From positions 2,542,001 to 2,606,000 of the forward strand of contig NZ_CP087164.1 in the NCBI RefSeq assembly GCF_021172045.1: 64,000 nt of DNA. Reading direction: 5' to 3'. Shown here in pieces: positions 1,381 to 34,050 of the stretch (the stretch's first letter is position 1; every line of letters begins with the position of its first letter). The translations under genes and the position numbers were made by a program. The DNA comes from Capillimicrobium parvum (lineage in GTDB: Bacteria > Actinomycetota > Thermoleophilia > Solirubrobacterales > Solirubrobacteraceae). The notes under the pieces were generated by a model that was not told where the DNA came from, did not search any database, and was given only the letters and a program-made list of their open reading frames with translations.

Positions 1381-2387
1381 GCAACCTCGCAAGGTTCATC
1401 GAGTCCGGCCCAGAGACGCCGCTCGCGGAGGGGCAGGTGTTGGTGGGCACCGCTTGCGAGCACGCGTATCTCTGGGACGAGATCGAGCTTCCGTATGGCG
1501 ATGGTCCGCGCGGTCACGGAGACACTGCCGCGTGGTGTCCGAAGTGCGACGACCCGACGGCCGTGCGCCATTTTGCGATGCGCAGCGTGACGACCTCGGG
1601 GCAAGCCGTCACGGCGCGGTGGCCCGGGTGCTCAGAGGCGGGGTGGTGGTACGTGCAGATCGATAGGAAGCTCGTCCGGTGGGCGAAGCACCTGGGCCTC
1701 AAGTCGTCCCACGTCGGACTGCTCATCGCGCTCGAGGGCTATCGGAAGACCTGGGACGCGCCGACGTGGGTCAAGTACGCGACGCTCGCGAGCGAGATCG
1801 GCGACAGCGAGGACACGATCAGCCGCCGTGTGCAGGACATGGAGCAGCTCGGTCTAATCGAGGTCGACCGCACGTCTACGAACGGTCGGCGAGGGGTCTG
1901 TCGGATCACACGCAAAGGCCTGACGTTGGCGCTTGCCCATATCGCGGGGAACATTCGGCGCGACCTGCCCGGCGACCATGGGCTCGATGAGTTCCTACGC
2001 GCTCTTCGACAGCAACCGCAAGCTGCGGCTGCGCGTAACCGCAAGCTGCGGTCGGAGCAACCGCAAGTTGCGGCCACCAAAGAAGAGCAGTTTGAAGAAG
2101 AGGAAGTTGAAGAAGAGCCTCTAACGAGGCGCGACCCGGAGGATCGCGGATTGTTCGATGACGACGCTGATCCCGAGGAGGCGTTCATCGACAACGTCAT
2201 CCGCCTCTTCAACGCCGTCGAGGAGCCGATCGACGCCAAGCCCATCGAGGCACGCGACGGGACGATCTGCGCCTACGCTCACCACGCCGAGTCAGACTGG
2301 ATCAGGCACAACGGTCGCCGTGAGTGCGGCATCTGCCATCCGCCAGCGGTGCCGCGCCTCGTGGCTCGATGGGTTAGGGCCGCCTGA
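1377..2387 (+). CDS. Winged-helix replication initiator-like protein
   Basis: A 336-residue protein. Residues 1-70 contain a Cys/His cluster ending in 'CPKCDD' that may bind zinc. Residues 95-190 form a winged-helix domain ('YATLASEIGDSEDTISRRVQDMEQLGLIEVDR'). A low-complexity linker with a strongly acidic stretch follows, and a C-terminal Cys/His pattern ('CAYAHH ... CGICHP') closes the protein. A winged helix plus flexible linker is usual in phage replisome organisers. The linker DNA carries three iteron-like repeats and a purine-rich low-GC tract, matching the lambda O-gene arrangement. The gene overlaps its upstream neighbour (ATGA) and downstream neighbour (TGATG). Its role in replication is inferred. 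Confidence 0.65.
   Translation: MSNLARFIESGPETPLAEGQVLVGTACEHAYLWDEIELPYGDGPRGHGDTAAWCPKCDDPTAVRHFAMRSVTTSGQAVTARWPGCSEAGWWYVQIDRKLVRWAKHLGLKSSHVGLLIALEGYRKTWDAPTWVKYATLASEIGDSEDTISRRVQDMEQLGLIEVDRTSTNGRRGVCRITRKGLTLALAHIAGNIRRDLPGDHGLDEFLRALRQQPQAAAARNRKLRSEQPQVAATKEEQFEEEEVEEEPLTRRDPEDRGLFDDDADPEEAFIDNVIRLFNAVEEPIDAKPIEARDGTICAYAHHAESDWIRHNGRRECGICHPPAVPRLVARWVRAA
2014..2073 (+). repeat. Three iteron-like repeats inside the replication gene (candidate origin)
   Basis: The 15-mer AACCGCAAGCTGCGG occurs at 2014-2028 and 2037-2051, and AACCGCAAGTTGCGG at 2059-2073. Spacings are 23 and 22 bp, about two helical turns. Copy 2 is in a different reading frame from copies 1 and 3 (peptides QPQAAA, NRKLR, QPQVAA), so the repeat is kept at DNA level. 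An AT-richer purine tract at about 2080-2120 follows and could be the unwinding region. Confidence 0.6.
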
Positions 2388-2918: not shown

Positions 2919-3626
2919 TCAGGTTGTCGCGTCGCGCTTGGCGATGGCGTCACGCGCACCTTGCGGCAGCGCGTCGAAAAGTCCCTTGAGCTTCTTGGGC
3001 TGAGCGATGCGGTCCTGCACGATGAAGTTGATCACCGCGAACAGGGCGGTCGCCGTCTCGGTGTCGTCGCGCAAGTCCATCTCAAGGGGGTGCACGGCGT
3101 TGTTCCCGACAACCCGCAGAACATCGAGTGCCTGTTGGGTCTCGACCGGCAGGCCTGCCGCGACGAGAGCTTTGATGGCGGCGTTGGGATCCTTGCCCTG
3201 CTGGCCCAGATGGTTCTGCAGCAGCGTCTGCAGCGCGAACCGCAGCAGCGCGCAAGCACCCCGTGGGGAGGCAGAGACGATTGCGCGGGCCTCCTCGTAG
3301 TCAGCCCGCACGTCGTCTGGCATGTCGGTGTGCGGGCGTGGACCGGTCAGGGTCTGTTGCGGTTCGACCATTCGCGCCGTGATCTGCGGCGTGCCGTCCA
3401 CCATCCAGAACCCTTCGACCCAGTAGGCGTCTCTGTCGCAGTGTTGGCACGTCGAGATCCACCCATTGGAGGCGGTGGGTGTCCACTCCTCATAGTCGAC
3501 CCGGACGTTGTAGTGCAGTTGCGCCCACTCCTGAGGCGCGTAGACCCCGCACCGGGGGCAATGAAACGCCGTGCTCTTGAACGTCGGGGTGACGATTTCC
3601 CCCTCTGCGATCCGCGGCAGCGCCAT
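2919..3626 (-). CDS. DUF4145 (HEPN-like) protein, possible defence cargo
   Basis: A 235-residue protein. The N-terminal half has a zinc-ribbon-like pair ('CPRCGVYAPQEW' and 'CQHCDRDAYW'). The C-terminal half matches DUF4145: 'DYEEARAIVSASPRGACALL', a helix-rich middle, then 'VLRVVGNNAVHPLEMD'. DUF4145 is a HEPN-type fold often linked to restriction and other anti-phage loci. It is the only gene on the minus strand between the early and structural operons, where phage satellites typically carry cargo. A defensive role is inferred. Confidence 0.7.
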   Translation of the reverse strand: MALPRIAEGEIVTPTFKSTAFHCPRCGVYAPQEWAQLHYNVRVDYEEWTPTASNGWISTCQHCDRDAYWVEGFWMVDGTPQITARMVEPQQTLTGPRPHTDMPDDVRADYEEARAIVSASPRGACALLRFALQTLLQNHLGQQGKDPNAAIKALVAAGLPVETQQALDVLRVVGNNAVHPLEMDLRDDTETATALFAVINFIVQDRIAQPKKLKGLFDALPQGARDAIAKRDATT

Positions 3627-3733
3627 TGCTCAAGCGTACGGGACCGGTCGGACCTGAACGGAAGATCCGCGTCACGGCCCGCAAAGCCGTGGGAACGCCG
3701 CTTGAGGTCGCATCCCCACTGGACTTCCAGCCG

Positions 3734-3756
3734 CCGCACCTCCAACCGCACCTCCA
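3734..3756 (+). repeat. Tandem CCGCACCTCCA repeat before the packaging operon
   Basis: The 11-mer CCGCACCTCCA occurs at 3734-3744 and 3746-3756, a 12-bp period, just before the start at 3761. The same 11-mer occurs inverted at 7597-7607 next to the tRNA-Cys end of the island. It might be bound by a common protein such as an excisionase or packaging factor. Confidence 0.4.
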
Positions 3757-3760
3757 CGGC

Positions 3761-4207
3761 ATGAACCAGACAGGGCATCCCCAGACGCTCCAAGCGGTCC
3801 AGCTGGGCAACCGCAACGCCGAGCAGCACGGCCTCTACGCCGGGCCGGGGAGGGAGTTGGACCCGCTGGCGCAGGAGGTGGCCGACTGGCTGATGCAGGC
3901 CAGGCACACCGAGCCGCTGGATCTGATGGCCGCCATCGAGATCGGCAAGCTGGCGGTCCTCATCGATCGCGTGGACACGGCGCTTGGCGATGGCGTGGTG
4001 GAGCGCAAGGGTCAGCCACGCGGCCTGATCGACATGCGTATCCGGCTGTCCTCGCGGTTGGAGAAGTGGCTTCGGCAGTTCGGCCTGACGCCTGCTGCCC
4101 GCGCTGACTTCGCCAAGGCGCTGGCAGGCGGCTCGTTCAGGGAGAAGATCGAGGCACGCCGAGCGGCGCTTGCCCAGCAGCAGGAGGCCGGCGATGCGCC
4201 CCGATGA
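3761..4207 (+). CDS. Small-terminase-like protein
   Basis: A 148-residue helical protein. The segment 'LGNRNAEQHGLYAGPGREL' resembles the N-terminal '..N..HGLY/S' signature of many actinophage small terminase subunits. The rest is amphipathic helix with a basic Ala/Gln-rich tail. I place the start at ATG 3761. A TTG at 3626 would extend it through the divergent promoter with an unlikely Pro/His-rich leader. It opens the structural operon and overlaps the next gene. The family call is tentative. Confidence 0.5.
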   Translation: MNQTGHPQTLQAVQLGNRNAEQHGLYAGPGRELDPLAQEVADWLMQARHTEPLDLMAAIEIGKLAVLIDRVDTALGDGVVERKGQPRGLIDMRIRLSSRLEKWLRQFGLTPAARADFAKALAGGSFREKIEARRAALAQQQEAGDAPR

Positions 4208-4403
4208 TCCGTTCACGGCTGTGGAGATCAGCACTGCGCCGGGCTGGGATGAGAGCGGGAGCCGCGTGGATCGCTGGGCCGTCGTGCTGAAGACGGCCTA
4301 CGGCACCAGTCGCGTGTTCACCACGCCGCACCTGGAGATCGCCGTCTCCGAGGCGCACGGACACATGAGCAGAATCGAGAAGCGACGGAAGGTGGCGGCA
4401 TGA
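4194..4403 (+). CDS. Small hypothetical protein
   Basis: A 69-residue protein with no family that I recognise. The ATG at 4194 lies inside the end of the preceding gene behind a good AGGAGG site. The stop overlaps the next ATG (ATGA at 4400). The sequence contains beta-type stretches ('RWAVVLKTAYGTSRVF'). The double overlap supports real coding within the structural operon. Confidence 0.6.
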   Translation: MRPDDPFTAVEISTAPGWDESGSRVDRWAVVLKTAYGTSRVFTTPHLEIAVSEAHGHMSRIEKRRKVAA

Positions 4404-5053
4404 ACGCGCCGCGTGAGGAGTTCCTGTTGGCGTTGGAGGCGGTCGCCTATGCCGATGCGACCTCGCCGGGTGACCGGCTGCGGGCGCTGGAGATGCTGGA
4501 ACGTGAGCGCCAGAAGACGCCTGACGGCCACGCGGTGTTCGACCTCTCGGGCCTTTCAGGCGAGGCGCTGGAGCGCGAGCTCGCCGGGTTCCTTCAGCCG
4601 GGCTATCACGGCAACCCGCCTCCGCTGCCTCAGGAGGACCCAGCCGATGAGGTTGCGGCACGTGTGATCGAGCAGGTGGCTGAAGGCGAGGACACGACGA
4701 TGTTCAGTCGCACGACGGCGGCGTTAGCTCGGTACTTCCATGGCCGCGAGGACCGCGAGGACCGCGAGCAGCCGAGCGCCGAGCCCGGTGGCAAGGTGGT
4801 GCCGTTGCGTCCCTCTCAGGAGACGGCGGGCGACCGTAGCGAGCCGCCCGTGGACCCACGCATGCTGGATCGCAACGACCCTCGGGTGAAGGAGCACGTG
4901 CGAAAGCAGCAGGAGGCCGCCCGCGCCGCACTTGCCCATCAGCGGCGCGAGGCGTTGCCGGAGTCGCTGAAGGCGCTGGTGCCTCCCGGCGTGGATCCAA
5001 AGGCGGCCGATCGCCAGTGGCCGAACGGCCTGGACGGGCGCGGCCGCGGATAA
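4400..5053 (+). CDS. Hypothetical structural-operon protein
   Basis: A 217-residue, mainly helical protein with high charge. There is an acidic centre ('HGREDREDREQPSAEPGG') and a basic C-terminal helix ('VKEHVRKQQEAARAALAHQRREA'). Its place between the small-terminase-like gene and the capsid gene, and its charged helical make-up, would suit a scaffold or assembly factor, but no family match is evident. It is coupled to the previous gene by ATGA. Confidence 0.55.
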   Translation: MNAPREEFLLALEAVAYADATSPGDRLRALEMLERERQKTPDGHAVFDLSGLSGEALERELAGFLQPGYHGNPPPLPQEDPADEVAARVIEQVAEGEDTTMFSRTTAALARYFHGREDREDREQPSAEPGGKVVPLRPSQETAGDRSEPPVDPRMLDRNDPRVKEHVRKQQEAARAALAHQRREALPESLKALVPPGVDPKAADRQWPNGLDGRGRG

Positions 5054-5318
5054 CACACAGACGCGTTGCGCAACGAGTCGTGCCGCCGCGGCGTTTGGCA
5101 GGGTTCGACTTGCATACGTCGGACGCTCGCCAGGGGGCCTGTACGCAGGGTCACGCGAGATACGGCGGCACGACTGGTCAGGCGTAGCCAGAGGGCGGGA
5201 AGTCTCCGTCACGCATTTCGCTCGTTTCCGGTGCACGGCTGGGCCTCCTTCGGAGGTGAGTCACCGAGTCCAGGACGCCCGTTGGCGTCATGAATTCGCG
5301 TACTTCGGAGGGATCCCC
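5054..5318. other. Intergenic region before the capsid gene
   Basis: No convincing gene. It holds the palindrome GTTGCGCAAC near 5065 and the hairpin CCTCC-TTCG-GAGG at 5243-5255, which has a stable UUCG loop. These may be processing, attenuation or promoter elements separating the small upstream genes from the capsid gene. Confidence 0.4.
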
Positions 5319-6599
5319 GTGCGGGATGTGCAGCAGGTCCTCAACGACCTCAAGGCGCTGGCCCAGCAGCGCAACGCAGGCCACGACGTCAGCCACCATC
5401 AGACACAGCTGATCGCTGAGCTCAAGGAGCACGGCATCGTCGCATCGGTCGCCGCTCCCCCGGCCGCGCAGCCCCCGGCGCTGTCGCAAGCGCAGCTGGA
5501 GGCGGCGGTGCGCAGCGTGTTCGCCGGTCGTGGCGGCAGCCGCTTCACCACTGACGAGACGGCCGAGTTCATGAAGGCGCTGGAGTCCGGGCAGGCGCAG
5601 TACGCGCCGACCTCCTCGCAGCCGAAGGCGACCCTCGCCGGCGTCATGACCAAGGCCCTGGCCGAGGCGACTCCTTCGGCTGGCGGCTATCTCGTGCCGG
5701 TCGAGGTCAGCAACGAGGTGATGCAGCTTGTCCGGGCGCGCATTTCGGTGATGCAGATGGGGCCGCGAGTCCTGAACGTCGCCAAGGAGCTTGACCTCCC
5801 GGCGGTGGCGCTGGGGACCACGGCGGCGTTCGTGCAGGAGAACGCCCGGATCCCGGTCAGCGAGCCGCAGTTCAGCCTGACGCCGAAGCTCAAGCCCCTC
5901 CAGCTGGCCGCCCTGTCGCCGGTGTCCAACCGGCTGCTGCACGACGCCCAGACCGTGCCCGAGTTCGAAGAGATCATCCGCAGCGACCTTGCCGACGCAG
6001 TCGCCAACCGCGCCGACCTGGCCTACCTCCAGGGCCTCGGCGGCGGTACCGAGCCGCTGGGCCTGCGCAACGTCTCGGGCATCAACGTCGTCAACCTCGA
6101 CCCCACGACCGCGCCGACCCTGCTCGACTTCCGCAAGGTGGTCGCGACACTTCGGTCGCGCAACTGCCCGTTCGTCAAGCCCGGCTGGATCATGCACCCC
6201 GACGTGCTCAGCTGGCTCGAGCAGCAGACCGACACGGACGGGCACCGGCTGCTGGACGGCGAGGACCTCAGCCTCGACGCGGCGGGGACGAGCGGCACGT
6301 TCTTGGGCTTCCGGTTCCAGACCACGACGCGCATCCCAACCAACCTCACCGTCTCATCCACGCCGGGGTGCACCTACGCCCTGTTCGGTGACTTCAACGA
6401 GGTCTGGATCGGCGAGCAGGAGGGCCTTCGCCTGGACGCTTCCGACACGGCGTCCTACGTGCAGACCGTCGAGGGCGAAGACGTCCACATCCACGCCTTC
6501 CAGTTCGAGCAGACCCTGTTCAAGGCCAGGACCGCCGTGGACATCTGCCTGCGCCGCCCCGAATGGATGGTCGCCATGGAAGGGGTCAAGGTCTCCTAG
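5319..6599 (+). CDS. HK97-fold major capsid protein
   Basis: A 426-residue protein. Residues 1-110 are helical and charged, like the delta/scaffold region of HK97 capsids. The conserved core starts at 'PSAGGYLVPVEVSNEV' and includes 'LAALSPVSNRLLHDA', 'LQGLGGGTEPLGLRN', 'WIMHPDVLSWLEQQTD' and 'YALFGDFNEVWIGE'. The GTG at 5319 follows GGAGGG at the right spacing; a GTG at 5256 sits inside a hairpin and adds unlikely residues. No prohead protease is visible, so removal of the scaffold region would need a helper phage or a gene outside the window. It implies the island builds or redirects capsids. Confidence 0.88.
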   Translation: MRDVQQVLNDLKALAQQRNAGHDVSHHQTQLIAELKEHGIVASVAAPPAAQPPALSQAQLEAAVRSVFAGRGGSRFTTDETAEFMKALESGQAQYAPTSSQPKATLAGVMTKALAEATPSAGGYLVPVEVSNEVMQLVRARISVMQMGPRVLNVAKELDLPAVALGTTAAFVQENARIPVSEPQFSLTPKLKPLQLAALSPVSNRLLHDAQTVPEFEEIIRSDLADAVANRADLAYLQGLGGGTEPLGLRNVSGINVVNLDPTTAPTLLDFRKVVATLRSRNCPFVKPGWIMHPDVLSWLEQQTDTDGHRLLDGEDLSLDAAGTSGTFLGFRFQTTTRIPTNLTVSSTPGCTYALFGDFNEVWIGEQEGLRLDASDTASYVQTVEGEDVHIHAFQFEQTLFKARTAVDICLRRPEWMVAMEGVKVS

Positions 6600-7660: not shown

Positions 7661-7667
7661 CCGAGAG

Positions 7668-7738
7668 AGGCGACGACCGGAATCGAACCGGTGTACACGG
7701 CTTTGCAGGCCGCTGCGTAGCCACTCCGCCACGTCGCC
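7668..7738 (-). tRNA. tRNA-Cys (GCA)
   Basis: A 71-nt cloverleaf: acceptor GGCGACG / CGTCGCC, anticodon loop CTGCAAA with anticodon GCA, T-arm CCGGTTCGATTCCGG, discriminator T. No CCA is encoded. Its 3' end is the junction with the phage-like island. Confidence 0.93.
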
Positions 7739-33015: not shown

Positions 33016-34050
33016 ATGCTCCGCCGCGCCGCTTCGCTCATGTCCCGGCTCCCGCGCCCGCTGCTCGTCACGATCCTCGCCGCCGGCGTCGTGCTGGCGG
33101 TCCTGCCGGCCCGGCACCCGCCGGCCACCGCGCTCCAGCCGGCCGGGCACGCGCCGGCCACCGCGCTCCAGCCGGCCCGGCACGCGCTGGCCACGGCGTT
33201 CCAGCCGGCCGGGCCGCGCGCGCCCGCGGCGGCCTGGCCCGGCCGGCACGGCTGCGGTGGTGGCGCCGACCTCACCGTCGAGGTGCGCAGCGGAGGGCGG
33301 CGGCGCGTCGCGCTCGTGCACGTGCCGCGCGGAGTACGGCGCGGCGCGCCGCTCATGATGGCGCTGCACGGCGCGCACGCAGACGGGCCGTTCATGGCCC
33401 GCTACTCGGGCCTGTCGCGGGTCGCCGATCGCGCCGGCTTCGTGGTCGCCTATCCGTCGTCGCTCGGCCGGCCGGCGTTCTGGGACCTGACCGGCCCCGG
33501 CGACGTGGCGTTCGGGCGCAGGCTGGTCGACCGGCTGTGGCGCACCGGCTGCGTGGACACGCGGCGGACCTACGCGGTCGGCGTCTCCAACGGCGGCGGC
33601 ATGACGGCCCGGCTCGGCTGCGAGCTGTCGTCGCGGCTGGCGGGCATCGTCGTGGTCGCGGGCGGATTTCGCAGCCTGCCCGCCTGCGCGCCCGACCGCC
33701 CTGTCTCGGTGCTCGAGATCCACGGGACCGACGACCAGGTCGTGCCATACGCCGGTCGCGCCGACGACGGCTTCGCCGGCGACGTGCGGGCCTGGGTGGA
33801 CGGCTGGGTGCGCCGCGACGGGTGCCTGCCGCAGCCGCGCGAGCGGCTGCTCGCCCCTCGGGCCGAGCAGCTGGCCTGGGGTCCGTGCGCGCAGGGCAGC
33901 GCCGTCGAGCACATCGTCCTGCAGGGCGGCCAGCACGCGTGGCCCGGGGCCACGCCGCCGGATCCGGGCCCCCGCGCCTCGATCTCGGCCGCGGCGCAGG
34001 CGTGGCGGTTCCTGCGCAGCCGACGGCTGGCGCATGCGCCGGCCGGCTGA
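33016..34050 (+). CDS. LpqC/PHB-depolymerase-like secreted esterase
   Basis: A 344-residue alpha/beta hydrolase. An N-terminal hydrophobic segment ('LLVTILAAGVVLAVLPA') is followed by about three degenerate 12-residue repeats (ATALQPAGHAP type). The catalytic domain has 'LMMALHGAHADG' (oxyanion strand), GVSNGGG (nucleophile Ser), 'LEIHGTDDQVVPY' (acid) and 'GGQHAWPG' (His), as in LpqC and feruloyl/PHB-type esterases. ATG 33016 follows GAAGG. It probably acts outside the membrane on a short-chain ester. It is convergent with the GT39 gene. Confidence 0.8.
   Translation: MLRRAASLMSRLPRPLLVTILAAGVVLAVLPARHPPATALQPAGHAPATALQPARHALATAFQPAGPRAPAAAWPGRHGCGGGADLTVEVRSGGRRRVALVHVPRGVRRGAPLMMALHGAHADGPFMARYSGLSRVADRAGFVVAYPSSLGRPAFWDLTGPGDVAFGRRLVDRLWRTGCVDTRRTYAVGVSNGGGMTARLGCELSSRLAGIVVVAGGFRSLPACAPDRPVSVLEIHGTDDQVVPYAGRADDGFAGDVRAWVDGWVRRDGCLPQPRERLLAPRAEQLAWGPCAQGSAVEHIVLQGGQHAWPGATPPDPGPRASISAAAQAWRFLRSRRLAHAPAG

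Follow-up and report, generated by a model that had tools for sequence, protein, structure and literature searches.

The locus described here raises the question whether a gene for a winged-helix protein can hold, inside its own coding sequence, the site from which its element replicates. The window analysed is a stretch of 64,000 nucleotides of the Capillimicrobium parvum genome, and coordinates refer to it unless another locus is named. The segment 2014-2120 lies within the gene at 1377-2387, and we consider it likely that this segment is a lambda-O-type replication origin of a 9.6-kb integrated element, placed inside the gene of its own initiator.

Repeats and low-stability tract within the gene

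A repeat of the form AACCGCAAGYTGCGG is present in three copies at 2014, 2037 and 2059 within gene 1377-2387. The steps of 23 and 22 bp correspond to about two helical turns, and a purine-rich tract with the letters CAAAGAAGAGCAGTTTGAAGAAGAGGAAGTTGAAGAAGAG starts 5 bp beyond the last copy, on its 3′ side. The features are as follows.

2014-2028, + strand: iteron 1, AACCGCAAGCTGCGG, with a near-palindromic core at 2016-2028
2037-2051, + strand: iteron 2, AACCGCAAGCTGCGG, core at 2039-2051, in a reading frame other than that of iterons 1 and 3
2059-2073, + strand: iteron 3, AACCGCAAGTTGCGG, core at 2061-2073, the best palindrome of the three
2078-2117, + strand: candidate DNA unwinding element, purine-rich, 40% GC, the least stable 40-mer of the element

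The 13-bp core, CCGCAAGYTGCGG, is nearly palindromic: against its own reverse complement it has 3, 3 and 1 mismatches in copies 1, 2 and 3, respectively. The sequence-only reading of this DNA had reported three near-identical 15-mers at 22-23 bp spacing beside a purine-rich low-GC tract, with the middle copy in another frame, and all of this was recovered, every copy on the forward strand. Counted from the gene start at 1377, the copies have offsets of 637, 660 and 682, which gives a common frame to copies 1 and 3 and a different one to copy 2.

These repeats could in principle be a chance or coding repeat that has no function at the DNA level. The outer copies, read in one frame, encode the similar peptides QPQAA and QPQVA, and clusters of three near copies were found at 6 places in 200 kb of the bacterium's genome (10 of 20 sampled stretches were scanned); both points speak for such a reading, and repeat clusters as such are no great rarity in this genome. 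Most of those 6 clusters are tandem repeats rich in GC, often with steps in multiples of 3. Against this reading stands the frame of copy 2, which encodes NRKLR, therefore the repeat is not due to a common peptide, as the earlier reading had also argued. The similarity is also not a matter of chance: none of 20,000 synonymous-codon shuffles of the gene was as similar as the observed arrangement (sum of mismatches 2, against a minimum of 4 and a mean of 15.4 in the shuffles), and a comparable triple anywhere in the gene appeared in none of 2,000 shuffles. Matches to the core number 4 in the whole 5.95-Mb genome, 3 of them in this gene, and the reversed control pattern has 11. The triple scan of the 64-kb window gave one other case, a 33-bp tandem repeat near 33113, which spans 33113-33210. 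The cluster stands out by having several traits at once: its units are palindromic, they lie in mixed frames at two-turn spacing, and the DNA next to them is the weakest in the element.

The stability of the tract was profiled by the nearest-neighbour method over the 9,573 bp of the element. Among 40-mers, the lowest stability is that of 2078-2117 (z 4.7), and among 60-mers that of 2065-2124; 2073-2117 has the highest purine content of any 45-mer. At the 100-bp scale, stability is slightly lower around 491, upstream of where the integrase gene starts, than in the tract on the iteron side. The cumulative GC skew of the element makes no turn near 2.0-2.1 kb, which counts against the reading as an origin.

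The gene product and the element that carries it

The gene and its operon neighbours are listed below.

1144-1380, + strand: excisionase-like HTH_17 gene, whose last 4 bp are shared with the start of the initiator gene
1377-2387, + strand: gene for an O-like replication initiator of 336 aa (HTH_36 over the cut-off; best PHROG “replication initiation O-like”)
1695-1859, + strand: winged-helix domain (HTH_36, scoring above the curated cut-off) over residues 107-161, fold predicted
2268-2339, + strand: C-terminal finger-like motif C-x-Y-x2-H...W...C-G-x-C-H-P, putatively zinc-binding from its sequence
2387-2581, + strand: HTH_17 DNA-binding gene, directly 3′ of the initiator gene

The product had been called a winged-helix protein, and the HTH_36 match agrees with this. 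It is assigned to an O-like initiator family: its best PHROG is phrog_678, “replication initiation O-like”, at a modest E-value of 3e-5, and several more replication initiation families follow among the 13 PHROGs listed (E up to 1). A second cysteine motif is present near the N-terminus, and both motifs may bind metal. The C-terminal finger motif recurs elsewhere, as a small separate gene beside the initiator of G059 (L063:2148-2324), and in G009 it ends an ATPase-like ORF (L003:1501-1731). Scans for promoters and terminators gave nothing useful.

Modelling of the full-length protein from a two-sequence alignment was poor (pLDDT 40), and the winged-helix domain modelled from eight sequences reached pLDDT 72. 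The domain model matches generic winged helices, with MarR-type regulators leading in Foldseek, and a second structure comparison placed DnaD N-terminal domains among many other winged helices at Z about 10-11. A lambda-O structure is absent among the structural matches listed, which is uninformative either way, and a phmmer search of solved structures had no match with an E-value under 0.17. On these models, the fold search would not separate an initiator from a regulator.

The MarR-family matches at the head of the fold search, together with the tight operon that the gene forms with the xis and HTH_17 genes, bring in the possibility that the palindromes are operators, at which a MarR-like winged-helix regulator binds its own gene and blocks or tunes transcription of the xis-initiator operon, with no start of replication. 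We hold this to be unlikely. Replication initiation families are the best PHROGs of the protein and of its relatives, an operator does not need the least stable 40-mer alongside it, and multiple in-gene sites at about two-turn spacing recur in the related genes described below.

The gene belongs to an element of 9,573 bp, which is bounded by a 44-bp direct repeat formed by the 3′ part of tRNA-Cys.

-1863 to -1820 (L007:8138-8181), no strand assigned: left copy of the direct repeat, 44 bp, 3′ part of tRNA-Cys
1-438, - strand: N-terminal part of a tyrosine integrase (whole ORF -803 to 438, L007:9197-10438; family match)
3626-4207, + strand: weak small-terminase-like ORF, below the curated cut-off
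5256-6599, + strand: HK97-type major capsid protein gene (family match)
7666-7709, no strand assigned: right copy of the direct repeat, 44 bp, 3′ part of tRNA-Cys

The element thus has both the integrase and the attachment repeats by which an integrated satellite is recognised. The element ORFs tested yielded no recognisable portal, large terminase, tail, primase, helicase or helicase loader gene, and a search of the bacterium's whole genome for a portal was also negative. A capsid gene without portal, large terminase, tail, primase and loader makes a helper-dependent phage satellite plausible from the gene content; alternatively, the element may be a decayed prophage. The earlier description as a phage satellite is supported in part, by the tRNA-Cys repeat, the integrase, the capsid gene and the phage functions that were not recognised among the ORFs tested; no helper is known. 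The further claim that the island replicates on its own went too far, since a primase, a helicase and a helicase loader were all unrecognised among the ORFs tested.

Some further observations were made on the element and on a similar capsid. A long GC-rich inverted repeat with the arms AGTCGTGCCGCCG / CGGCGGCACGACT lies at 5060-5190, between the ORF at 4400-5053 and the capsid gene; it has no Rfam match and an RNA fold z of -1.9, and it could be a packaging or regulatory site. To the left of position 1, the 3′ part of an unannotated ORF (L007:7920-9047), whose final stretch reads DYPFPLRNGQIARLSLPQRLEKSDVDRMVQLLHAL, is located inside the element between the left repeat and the integrase. Another genome, G033, has a capsid 42% identical to that of the window at about 9475-10743 of L076 (G033:C1:3177001-3196000), near a tyrosine integrase. 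No other phage families were recognised among the ORFs tested near it, and the locus is possibly a related capsid-bearing island. This genome has no HTH_36 match over the cut-off, and a 310-aa ORF at its capsid locus was dropped, as no family was found for it.

Palindromic clusters in related winged-helix genes

No close homologues of the 1377-2387 product were found in genome_contigs, viral_contigs, phages (tblastn), 101 relatives or 232 genomes of the order. The sole homologue at E 1e-5 or better in the 101 relatives and the 232 order genomes is L008 in G005, with 34% identity (E 6e-11) in the winged-helix region, residues 49-214; its protein, used as query against 399 genomes of the class, returned the gene of the window only. 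On the same contig are ORFs which by eye resemble large terminase, portal and capsid genes. The G005 gene carries six copies of a 24-bp palindromic unit in the same gene region as the window iterons and in different letters, and the motif scan gave 10 matches against 0.01 expected. Weaker matches in G019, G046 and G028 were set aside as seemingly unrelated genes on ORF reading, and one in G009 as its likeness was limited to the C-terminal finger. The exact iteron pair of the window is absent from viral_contigs, and no relative of the G032 initiator was found there.

The survey of HTH_36 covered the 232 genomes of the order and gave 16 genes in 14 genomes at E-values of 1e-5 or less, each gene scoring over the cut-off; all 16 were scanned. 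A palindromic cluster lies inside the gene in 5 of the 16 (the window's own, G020, G128, G032 and G059), at or just beyond the gene end in 2 (G004 and G057), and no cluster was accepted in the other 9; the intragenic plan is therefore not universal. A GC-rich repeat family in G078 was judged non-palindromic and counted among the 9 negatives, and an inverted-repeat check of 4 of these 9 left the count unchanged. G004 and G057 have short HTH_36 genes, with clusters at L051:1762-1879 and L059:1822-2015, which are possible extragenic versions of the same origin plan. Matches to phrog_678 are present in 53 of the 232 genomes; 30 loci were fetched and 12 of these scanned, with palindromic clusters in 3 (G103, G100 and again G020).

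Together with the G005 homologue, the total is eight genes with eight different palindromes, the window's own included (the others being G005, G103, G100, G020, G128, G032 and G059). The repeats are unrelated in their letters and equivalent in their gene position; in the related genes they sit just 3′ of the DNA-binding domain. The same plan is thus realised in these genes with other palindromes, and when the surroundings of the related loci were scanned with the motifs, few or no close matches fell outside the gene. From the coordinates, the copies are in mixed reading frames in 7 of the 8 genes. An AT-rich or purine-rich tract was seen by eye after the last copy in G103, G100, G032 and G128, and is less clear in G005, G020 and G059. 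The closest parallel to the window is G032, with five sites of the GGAC...GTCC type followed by GAAGAAGAACTAGCGGAAGAAGAACTA. At two mismatches its motif is too short to inform (63 found against 18 expected), and use was made only of its exact matches, which number three and all lie within the gene. The ORF after the related gene of G100 encodes an ATPase which by eye resembles a DnaC-type helicase loader, giving the lambda O-P order.

The survey bears on the chance or coding reading of the cluster from both sides. The three exact copies of G128 are all in one frame, so that this one may be a coding repeat, and it lends that reading some support; against it, the pattern returns with other letters in seven related genes, six of them in mixed frames. 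With the frame of copy 2 and the shuffles also against it, this reading is strongly disfavoured, its probability being very slight.

Iterated palindromes also mark packaging or partition sites, and the weak small-terminase ORF at 3626-4207 would fit a cluster that serves another protein, such as a small terminase or a ParB-like factor. The company in which the repeats are found argues against this, for in the related genes they accompany the winged-helix gene, lie just after its DNA-binding domain and have different letters in each case. A packaging or partition site is accordingly judged very improbable.

Proposed mechanism and comparison with known systems

Under the preferred reading of 2014-2120 as an origin, the 1377-2387 protein would bind the three palindromic iterons through its winged helix, probably as dimers. 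With the iterons about two helical turns apart, the bound proteins would come to lie on one face of the DNA. The complex would bend the DNA and could help to melt the adjoining 40-bp purine-rich tract, at which a replicative helicase of the host or of a helper phage may then be loaded. We infer binding, melting, helicase loading and origin activity from the sequence. If the origin reading is true, it would explain why repeats occur in several reading frames in such genes. The eight genes with eight palindromes would also form a self-labelled data set, in which each gene holds a winged helix and its likely target, and therefore a recognition code could be inferred and tested.

Embedded origins are already known in lambdoid phages and SPP1. 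In lambda, according to the available text of PMC5043065, the origin within gene O consists of inverted repeats bound by O dimers, followed by an A+T-rich region of about 40 bp which is opened by O. As a control, the same repeat finder was applied to gene O (NC_001416, 38686-39585) and gave four iterons with steps of 20, 24 and 23. The likeness lies in an initiator gene that holds imperfect palindromic iterons about 20-24 bp apart and then a low-stability tract of about 40 bp. An O-like DNA-binding domain, palindromic iterons at two turns and an adjoining low-stability tract, which are among the features by which a lambda-O-type origin is recognised, are all found here, and with the plan of the related genes they uphold well the earlier comparison with lambda O. 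The differences are several. The window has three iterons with a 13-bp core and lambda four of 18-19 bp; the iterons begin 63% into the window gene and 39% into O; the window protein has a cysteine motif at either end; beside its gene, no P-type loader was recognised among the element ORFs tested; and the tract is rich in purines where that of lambda is strongly AT-rich, the GC content of the window being 72%. Lambdoid phages have four to six iterons against three here, which counts against the reading as an origin, and three are enough for lambda according to the accessible part of PMC7466680.

SPP1 gp38/oriL is alike in having repeats and an unwinding element inside the gene of the origin-binding protein; it differs in a second origin, oriR, in its own loader and helicase, and in repeats which are described as direct repeats (both from the part of PMC6316719 available). 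For mycobacteriophage repA, the text available in PMC7157519 suggests an embedded origin as a possibility, and repeats were not found.

Among satellites, the phage-inducible islands (PICI; SaPI and EcCI) resemble the window element in being integrated and in carrying xis, an initiator gene and iterons adjoining an AT-rich region. Their origin is immediately 3′ of rep, with two iteron sets flanking the AT-rich region (PMC6092414, as far as its text is available), whereas the window iterons are in the gene and on one side of the tract only, which departs from the PICI origin, as does the result that no primase or primase-rep match was obtained among the element ORFs tested. Capsid-forming PICI have capsid, protease, portal, connectors and both terminase subunits (available portion of PMC10690885); the window element does not have this set, since its tested ORFs include a capsid and a weak small terminase, and neither a portal nor a large terminase was found among them. 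The RepA of PLE is likewise a satellite-coded initiator which binds semi-palindromic iterons; the binding is that of PLE, and RepA differs in being of the RepA_N family with its origin in a noncoding region (available text of PMC7145576). A literature search, with most subscription papers beyond its reach, did not bring up any satellite for which an origin within a gene had been described.

It may be, and we put this forward only tentatively, that small integrative elements and phages of this order form a family in which each winged-helix initiator, in some cases with zinc-finger-like ends, has a fast-diverging origin of its own inside its gene, and that the window shows this plan at work in a primase-less satellite with a capsid gene, which would be a replicon of another type than PICI, PLE or P4. 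Since each such gene would contain its own target, initiator and site would have to change in step, and matched protein-DNA specificities would result as a natural set. If the origin reading is true, embedded origins of the lambda type reach as far as a small island with a capsid gene in a bacterial lineage of high GC content. The satellite origins in the sources cited are placed otherwise, beside rep or in noncoding DNA.
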